From Planomonospora sp. ID82291 (GTDB lineage Bacteria > Actinomycetota > Actinomycetes > Streptosporangiales > Streptosporangiaceae), in assembly GCF_015711645.1 (NCBI RefSeq), contig NZ_JABTEX010000003.1, forward strand, positions 434,001 through 498,000: a stretch of DNA of 64,000 nucleotides, written 5' to 3'. Numbering within the stretch: position 1 is the stretch's first letter; each line of letters opens with the position of its first letter. Positions 58,648-60,132 of the stretch are shown here, one piece after another. The notes beneath the pieces are model-generated. The model was not told the origin of the DNA. It did no database searches and saw only the letters and a list, made by a program, of their open reading frames with translations. The position numbers and the translations under genes were made by a program.

Positions 58648-58800
58648 TTGACGTCCTCCCCCGTCTGAAGACGGGGGATTCCAACAGCAACTACCCCACA
58701 AGGAGGAGGTCGCGTTGAGGTTCACGGTTCACCGGCCCGCCCAACGGCGAGCCTCCCCGCGCAGCCACCGTGCGCCCCACGGCGGTGTCCCGGAGGTTGC
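58648..58800 (-). ncRNA. presumed omega/reRNA scaffold of element 2
   Basis: It covers the 3' end of tnpB and the right end. Visible parts on the minus strand are GCGCGGGGAGGCTCGCCG, CCTCCTCCTTGTGGGGTAG and the terminal hairpin CCCCCGTC-TTCA-GACGGGGG. The guide would start at 58647: GAGGACCTGCTCGTCACC. The 5' end is not defined by sequence. Confidence 0.5.
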
Positions 58801-59887
58801 AGGCCGCGTTCACGTCGGCGTCGGCCCGATGCCCGCAGGCGACGCACCGGAACACCGCTTGGCTCTCGCGGCTGTCCGGGGCGCGGTGCCCGCAGGTGTT
58901 GCAGGTCTGCGACGTGTACGCGGGGTTGATCTTGACGACGCGGCCGGGGGCCTTGTCCTCCAGACGGGTCACGAGCCGCCCCCACCCGGCGGCGAGGATG
59001 GCCCGGTTCAGCCCTGCTTTCTGGCGGACGTTCGTTCCCGGCTGCTCGACGGTGCCCTTCGCCGACCGGGTCATGTTCCGGATCTTCAGGTCTTCGACGG
59101 CGATGACGTCGAACCGGCGCGCCAGATCGGTGGAGGTCTTCTCCACCCAGTCCCTGCGCCGGTCACTCTCACGGGCTTTCAGCCGGGCGAGGGCGGCCTT
59201 CACCTTCGCCCGCCGGTGGGAGCCGCGGCGGGCGCGGGCGAGTTTCCGCTCAAGCCGCAGCAGCCGCCCGGCCTCGGGCTTGCGCAGGCCGGGAGCGGTC
59301 AGCAGTTCCCCGGTCGACAGCGCCGCCGAGGCGGCCACACCCCGGTCCACGCCGACGGCCTCACCCGTTGCGGGCGCGGGCACCGGCTTCGGGACGGCGG
59401 CGAACGCGACGTGCCAGCGTCCAGCGCTGTCGCGGGTGATCCGGTACGACTTCGCCCCGCCGGGCACGGCGCGGGACCAGCGGAACCGCACCCAGCCGAC
59501 CTTCGGGATCTTCACCTCGCCGGTGTTGCGCGACAGGCGCCGCACCTGGTCGGCTTTGACGGCGACGATCCGGAACCCCTCACTCCGGCCGCGTCTGCGC
59601 CACGTCGGGCGCCGGTGGGTGCCGCCGAAGAAGTTCGCCATGGCCTGGGCGAAATCCTTCAGCGCCTGCTGCTGCACGACGATCGACCCGGCGGCCAGCC
59701 AGCCGAAGGCCGCTCGCGCCGCGGTGAGCTGGCGGCACTGCTCGGCGAACCCCGGCGCGCTTTTTCGGCCCGGCGTCCAGTGCGCGTGCTGCTCGACGGC
59801 GAGGTTCCACACGAACCTCGCGTGCGCGCAGTGCTCCGCCAGCGCCGCCTCCTGGGCGGGGGTGGGGGAGAGCCGGTACCGGGACAT
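58691..59887 (-). CDS. tnpB: RNA-guided endonuclease TnpB (IS605 OrfB family)
   Basis: A 398-residue TnpB, same length as the first but clearly diverged from it. Catalytic residues are D181 (VGVDRGVAAS), E265 (IAVEDLKI) and D358 (RADADVNAAC), all present. The zinc finger is C329-x2-C332 and C348-x2-C351 (TCNTCGH, FRCVACGH). The N-terminus RYRLSPTPAQEAALAEHC is the usual opening. The ATG at 59887 has no ribosome site and a TAAATT -10-like hexamer lies seven to eight bases upstream, so the mRNA may be leaderless. It should be active if expressed. Confidence 0.92.
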   Translation of the reverse strand: MSRYRLSPTPAQEAALAEHCAHARFVWNLAVEQHAHWTPGRKSAPGFAEQCRQLTAARAAFGWLAAGSIVVQQQALKDFAQAMANFFGGTHRRPTWRRRGRSEGFRIVAVKADQVRRLSRNTGEVKIPKVGWVRFRWSRAVPGGAKSYRITRDSAGRWHVAFAAVPKPVPAPATGEAVGVDRGVAASAALSTGELLTAPGLRKPEAGRLLRLERKLARARRGSHRRAKVKAALARLKARESDRRRDWVEKTSTDLARRFDVIAVEDLKIRNMTRSAKGTVEQPGTNVRQKAGLNRAILAAGWGRLVTRLEDKAPGRVVKINPAYTSQTCNTCGHRAPDSRESQAVFRCVACGHRADADVNAACNLRDTAVGRTVAARGGSPLGGPVNREPQRDLLLVG

Positions 59888-59937
59888 GCCATCAATTTAC
59901 CATCGGAGAGATGGGTTGTGGCGGGTATTCTGCCGAC

Positions 59938-60078
59938 ATGAAACAGATCACGTTGCGGCTTCCCGACGACCTTCACGCACGGCTCAAGGAGTTGGCCGAG
60001 CATGAGCACCGGTCCCTGCACGCACAGGTGCTGTACATCGTGCAGCAGGCCGTCCCGGCTCCGCCGGACCGTCCCTGA
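59938..60078 (+). CDS. ribbon-helix-helix (Arc/FitA-like) small regulator
   Basis: A 46-residue protein. The start MKQITLRLPDDLHARLKELA is the classic ribbon-helix-helix opening (strand KQITLRLP, then helix A), and EHRSLHAQVLYIVQQAV is helix B. Such proteins bind operators as dimers and include FitA- and CopG-type antitoxins. No toxin gene is adjacent. It diverges from tnpB of element 2 across 50 bp; TATTCT (59926-59931) is a likely -10 giving a leaderless mRNA. A role in repressing tnpB or the element is inferred from this layout, which mirrors element 1. Confidence 0.7.
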   Translation: MKQITLRLPDDLHARLKELAEHEHRSLHAQVLYIVQQAVPAPPDRP

Positions 60079-60094
60079 CGGGACGCCCATTCCT

Positions 60095-60114
60095 CCCCGG
60101 CCTGAAGGCCGAGG
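60095..60114. repeat. left-end hairpin of TnpB element 2
   Basis: Arms CCCCGGCC and GGCCGAGG (one mismatch) flank TGAA on the plus strand, i.e. a TTCA loop on the element's own strand. It starts 18 bases inside the left boundary. Confidence 0.7.
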
Positions 60115-60132
60115 CATCCTGGGCGGACTGAG

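Follow-up and report, generated by a model that had tools for sequence, protein, structure and literature searches.

A divergent ribbon-helix-helix gene in an IS1341-like TnpB element of Planomonospora, probably encoding an exchangeable autorepressor

Why would a TnpB transposon carry, back to back with its nuclease gene, a gene for a DNA-binding protein of only 46 residues? The question is raised by element 2, a 1,485-bp element on the minus strand at positions 58648–60132 of the window analyzed here, which comprises all 64,000 nucleotides of Planomonospora sp. ID82291 contig NZ_JABTEX010000003.1 from 434,001 to 498,000 (forward strand). Element 2 holds tnpB (58691–59887, minus strand) and, diverging from it, a gene for a ribbon-helix-helix (RHH) regulator (59938–60078, plus strand). 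To our knowledge, little is known about how TnpB activity is restrained in natural hosts. The RHH protein is probably a dedicated autorepressor of tnpB and of its guide RNA (omegaRNA), replaceable over evolution by a protein of unrelated fold. In the literature searched, which did not extend to the main TnpB surveys, no description of an RHH, CopG, or Phd regulator paired with tnpB was found, and an earlier description is possible.

Coupling of the regulator to tnpB and its exchange

The RHH subfamily of element 2 is coupled to tnpB almost without exception. A profile built from 18 tnpB-adjacent RHH proteins was run on genomes of the order (297), the class (296), and a second genus (150), overlapping sets that together represent about 700 different actinomycete genomes. 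Among distinct matches of at least 40 bits, 71 of 77 had a tnpB diverging from their 5′ end, versus 1 of 28 below 40 bits (Fisher p 3e-18). The proportion was 54/60 once the 17 seed loci were removed and 36/37 in the second genus, from which no seed was drawn, and a search of the order's 297 genomes with the RHH only also returned matches lying mostly beside tnpB. At least one of the exceptions, L117, retains remnants of the same ends and of the tnpB start, while a plasmid collection yielded a single match (Sulfitobacter), not beside tnpB. By a crude estimate, a random gene would be placed in this way relative to tnpB about once in 6,000. The initial annotation had proposed comparing the pairing frequency with chance, and the pairing proved to lie well above it. 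That the two genes are chance neighbors, or the RHH gene an artefactual reading frame, might be argued from the presence of RHH beside just 4 of the 80 nearest tnpBs, but the split between strong and weak matches rules out chance pairing and purifying selection acts on the gene (its dN/dS is about 0.06 in the element 2 group), leaving this explanation with practically no probability.

Another TnpB element in the window follows the same plan, as had been noted initially. In element 1, a Phd-like regulator gene (2800–2982, minus strand) diverges from a tnpB beginning at 3007 (plus strand), with the palindrome GGTTCCGTGACGGAACC in between. When this Phd-like protein was searched alone, 18 of 22 matches above 45 bits were divergent from tnpB, and Phd–tnpB gaps are often rich in GGTACC. 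A tree of 135 TnpBs requires at least 14 changes among the states none, RHH, and Phd, and RHH occurs in several separate clades. The TnpB of L174, which has an RHH, is 83% identical to that of element 1 (L007, Phd), to which every sampled Phd-bearing TnpB is less close; L224 (RHH) is the sister of L242 (Phd) with support of 98/97; and a single Phd clade is rejected within the element 1 clade (AU p 3.8e-7), where RHH and Phd are interleaved. Two unrelated folds therefore hold the same place beside a nearly identical nuclease. Related elements have exchanged their regulator, which suggests that such elements need an off-switch of their own. Recurrent capture of antitoxin-type repressors had been proposed initially; the recurrence is upheld by the TnpB trees and the RHH/Phd interchange, whereas "antitoxin-type" holds as a label of fold only, the element being free of toxin genes, and "capture" is better replaced by exchange of a regulator module and by its gain or loss, in either direction. 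We lean slightly toward a broader view, that these elements constitute a class of TnpB transposons with a dedicated, element-encoded nuclease repressor, in which RHH and Phd folds are swapped as modules near the left end among similar elements, several fixed circuits thus governing an RNA-guided transposon nuclease.

A regulator next to tnpB is a minority trait, since none of 17 well-matched TnpBs of the second genus, picked blind to their neighbors, had an RHH or Phd gene. Across 61 sampled genomes of that genus there were 207 tnpB matches versus 12 RHH matches (RHH about 6%), and the genome studied here has two RHH and one Phd regulators among 16 tnpBs. The four RHH genes found with the 80 TnpBs nearest to that of element 2 belong to the close relatives L017, L018, and L035, and to L021 of Planomonospora parontospora. 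The L021 TnpB is 82% identical to that of element 2, its RHH is a different one, and a perfect repeat (GACGGCAT...ATGCCGTC) lies between the genes; on its sequence, L021 represents an independent change of regulator. Near relatives without RHH typically have the left-end hairpin 50–100 bp from tnpB. An ancestral RHH with simple decay was set aside, as these relatives show no obvious relic and their left end usually lies near tnpB, though either loss or gain may have occurred.

Anatomy and insertion of element 2

Element 2 is an intact, tnpA-less transposon of the IS200/IS605 type (IS1341-like) that carries its own regulator gene. Its TnpB (398 aa; Pfam; NCBIfam guided_TnpB, E 3.6e-72) keeps the RuvC residues D181, E265, and D358 and intact CxxC pairs of the zinc finger. 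The Arc/Mnt-like RHH protein, MKQITLRLPDDLHARLKELAEHEHRSLHAQVLYIVQQAVPAPPDRP, exceeds the Pfam cut-offs of RHH_5, FitA-like_RHH, Arc, and HicB, and its family profile matches best, among solved structures, Mnt, AmrZ, and Arc. No tnpA occurs within element 2, and the sole Y1 transposase of the genome adjoins a different element. The initial coordinates of the element are exact to the base, and the initial description of hairpin ends, a missing tnpA, a tnpB with an intact RuvC site, and a tiny divergent DNA-binding gene agrees with the limits, residues, and Pfam matches found here.

The limits of element 2 are common to the copies L009, L010, and L017, and both L009, the other copy in the same genome, and L017, a Planomonospora copy, have unrelated flanks. 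On the tnpB strand, the element starts with CTCAGTCCGCCC and the left-end hairpin (60090–60120, minus strand, delimited by copies elsewhere and by folding) and finishes with a closing hairpin followed by GGACGTCAA. This right-end hairpin (58648–58682, minus strand) ends in TCAA, folds, and is conserved in L009, L010, L017, and L018. The left flank ends in TTCAC and the right flank starts with GAGGACC; joined, they read ...DLASYRGVWFPLHEDLLVTPGIPRH to a stop codon and restore an in-frame host gene (...GVWFPLH, then EDLLVTPGIPRH and stop across the junction), whose homologs are uninterrupted at that point. Insertion was therefore precise, with no target duplication. TTCAC beside the left end (60133–60137) is presumed to be the target or target-adjacent motif (TAM), and the right-end hairpin is presumed to be the 3′ part of the omegaRNA. 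The guide would then be the flank adjoining the right end (GAGGACCTGCTCGTC...), with which the sequence is compatible, and would be expected to match the empty site beside TTCAC, an arrangement that is ordinary for an IS200/IS605 TnpB element. The interrupted host gene (60133–60507) was broken near its 3′ end and has a paralog about 92 kb away on the same contig (C9:585991–586566, 62–70% identity).

The RHH gene sits within the element ends, and its final codons overlap a left-end subterminal inverted repeat (60050–60082, identified by sequence and fold). A resembling stretch is found in L002 and L003, both without RHH, and the left end as a whole (60050–60120) is closer to L002/L003-type elements, of another TnpB clade, than to the nearest TnpB relatives, so that left-end swapping is possible. 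Within this genome the RHH gene lies inside the ends in two copies, element 2 and L009. In L009 (C9:266064–269255), the tnpB stop is lost (TAG to TGG), with readthrough past the right end into the flank giving 448 aa. Other loci of the genome, L011–L014, comprise three near-identical TnpBs and one truncated copy, L011–L013 having a serine-recombinase-like frame immediately upstream (IS607-like, judged by eye). Elsewhere in the window lies a cobalamin riboswitch (31584–31706, minus strand).

The promoter gap and the role of the regulator

The divergent promoter region (59885–59940) spans 56 bp with both start codons included. Both genes look leaderless, with TAAATT and TATTCT each 6 nt before the ATG of tnpB and RHH, respectively. 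Counted in the same way, gap lengths in relatives cluster at 34–35, 45, and 56 bp, a spacing of about one helical turn. A direct repeat, GATGGTAAATTGATGG (59889–59904, minus strand), covers the tnpB −10 element (TAAATT, 59894–59899) and is a candidate operator; its form GATGG-N5-TGAYGG, with 11-bp spacing over the tnpB −10, is shared by 8 RHH loci of the element 2 group and by 0 of 75 relatives without RHH (Fisher p 0.002). Inverted repeats exceeding shuffles (p ≤ 0.05) occur in 15 of 69 RHH–tnpB gaps (3.5 expected, binomial p 1.3e-6), compared with 2 of 75 control regions preceding tnpBs that lack an RHH and 1 of 69 control stretches within RHH genes. Near-perfect examples span both starts in L187 (CATGGGACCATTCT...AGAATGGTCCCATG), L126, and L100. 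The RHH-side and tnpB-side arms are also more alike within a locus (7.15/14) than between loci (6.39/14), a value reached in 24 of 20,000 permutations. As the tested loci are related, they are less independent than the permutation and binomial values imply.

From these observations we infer that the RHH protein binds DNA and represses, and what purpose this serves. An RHH dimer would bind the short gap between the divergent leaderless promoters and, lying over both, repress tnpB as well as its own gene. The omegaRNA of TnpB elements is processed from the tnpB transcript; made here from the tnpB 3′ end, it would be limited by the same repression. The nuclease may then be produced as a burst upon arrival or derepression and kept low thereafter, in parallel with the control of toxin operons by antitoxin folds. 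The regulator is a swappable module, its place taken in close relatives by a Phd-type protein, and its benefit would lie in holding down the cost of the nuclease without giving up retention at the empty site.

Several results weigh against an autorepressor. The RHH gene is missing beside 76 of the 80 nearest tnpBs, and most tnpBs have no such gene. The inverted repeat of element 2 itself is no better than shuffles (p 0.57) and was dropped as its operator, so that the candidate operator here is the conserved direct repeat. Strong covariation between RHH strand residues and operators was not borne out, the trend being mild, and the AlphaFold monomer has two helices and no visible strand, at low confidence (pLDDT 60).

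Other roles for the RHH protein were considered. As a transposition accessory, it would bind the ends and aid a Y1 transposase in trans, as TraY-type RHH proteins aid HUH relaxases. The missing tnpA together with a Y1 transposase elsewhere in the genome, the weak match to TraY (E 0.03), and the overlap of the RHH 3′ end with the element's left end are all consistent with such a role. The conserved repeats, however, sit in the promoter gap, the substitute Phd is no HUH partner, and many tnpA-less relatives do without RHH, which makes an accessory unlikely. Alternatively, the protein could be an antitoxin-like inhibitor that prevents cutting by binding TnpB or its RNA, the pair then forming an addiction module; RHH and Phd are antitoxin-type folds, and TnpB would be expected to cut the empty site, so that the nuclease might be released once the regulator is lost. 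Interchange of RHH and Phd beside near-identical TnpBs is nevertheless hard to fit with a specific protein contact, and the RHH proteins are barely more than the DNA-binding domain, with no conserved tail; we regard inhibition by contact as quite unlikely. Small regulators can act in trans, and the RHH, present in two copies in this genome, might be a passenger that regulates host genes and is simply carried along. Its fixed divergent position, the short gaps of few favored lengths, and its replacement by Phd in the same place render this very unlikely. Autorepression of tnpB remains our preferred explanation. RHH and Phd regulators of TnpB elements may offer compact natural off-switches. The natural set of elements is large, pairs candidate operators with regulators of two interchangeable folds, and so allows the control of TnpB and of its guide RNA to be put directly to the test. 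It also reveals a parallel in control between transposon nucleases and toxin operons.

Comparison with known systems

Element 2 has the RuvC D/E/D residues, zinc finger, subterminal hairpins, and precise, duplication-free insertion by a short target that define IS200/IS605 TnpB elements. It resembles IS1341-like tnpB-only elements in its hairpin ends, TCAA right end, lack of target duplication, omegaRNA-like tnpB 3′ end, and TTCAC at the left end, but differs in having a divergent RHH gene (Phd in element 1) between the left end and tnpB, where most relatives have none. Type II toxin-antitoxin (TA) operons of the FitAB and Phd/Doc type likewise set the gene of a potentially harmful nuclease next to that of a small autoregulator whose DNA-binding fold is RHH or Phd. 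Unlike those operons, the pair is divergent rather than co-transcribed, conserves no toxin-binding tail, and includes no known toxin fold; the only other gene of element 2 is the divergent tnpB, and with no co-directional toxin gene of a known family the element was rejected as a type II module. The Arc and Mnt repressors of phage P22 are likewise small repressors and the nearest solved relatives of the RHH protein, but they act in a phage immunity circuit and not in a TnpB element. Tn3-family transposons with TA pairs (PMC7157771) also have a TA-type gene adjoining the transposon's enzyme gene, yet they carry a complete pair, whereas element 2 has a lone regulator. TldR proteins, TnpB-derived RNA-guided repressors (mentioned in PMC13418256), similarly link the TnpB lineage to regulation. 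There, TnpB itself has turned into the regulator. The TnpB of element 2 was rejected as a TldR, for its RuvC site is not inactivated; this intact TnpB is presumably what a protein regulator acts on.
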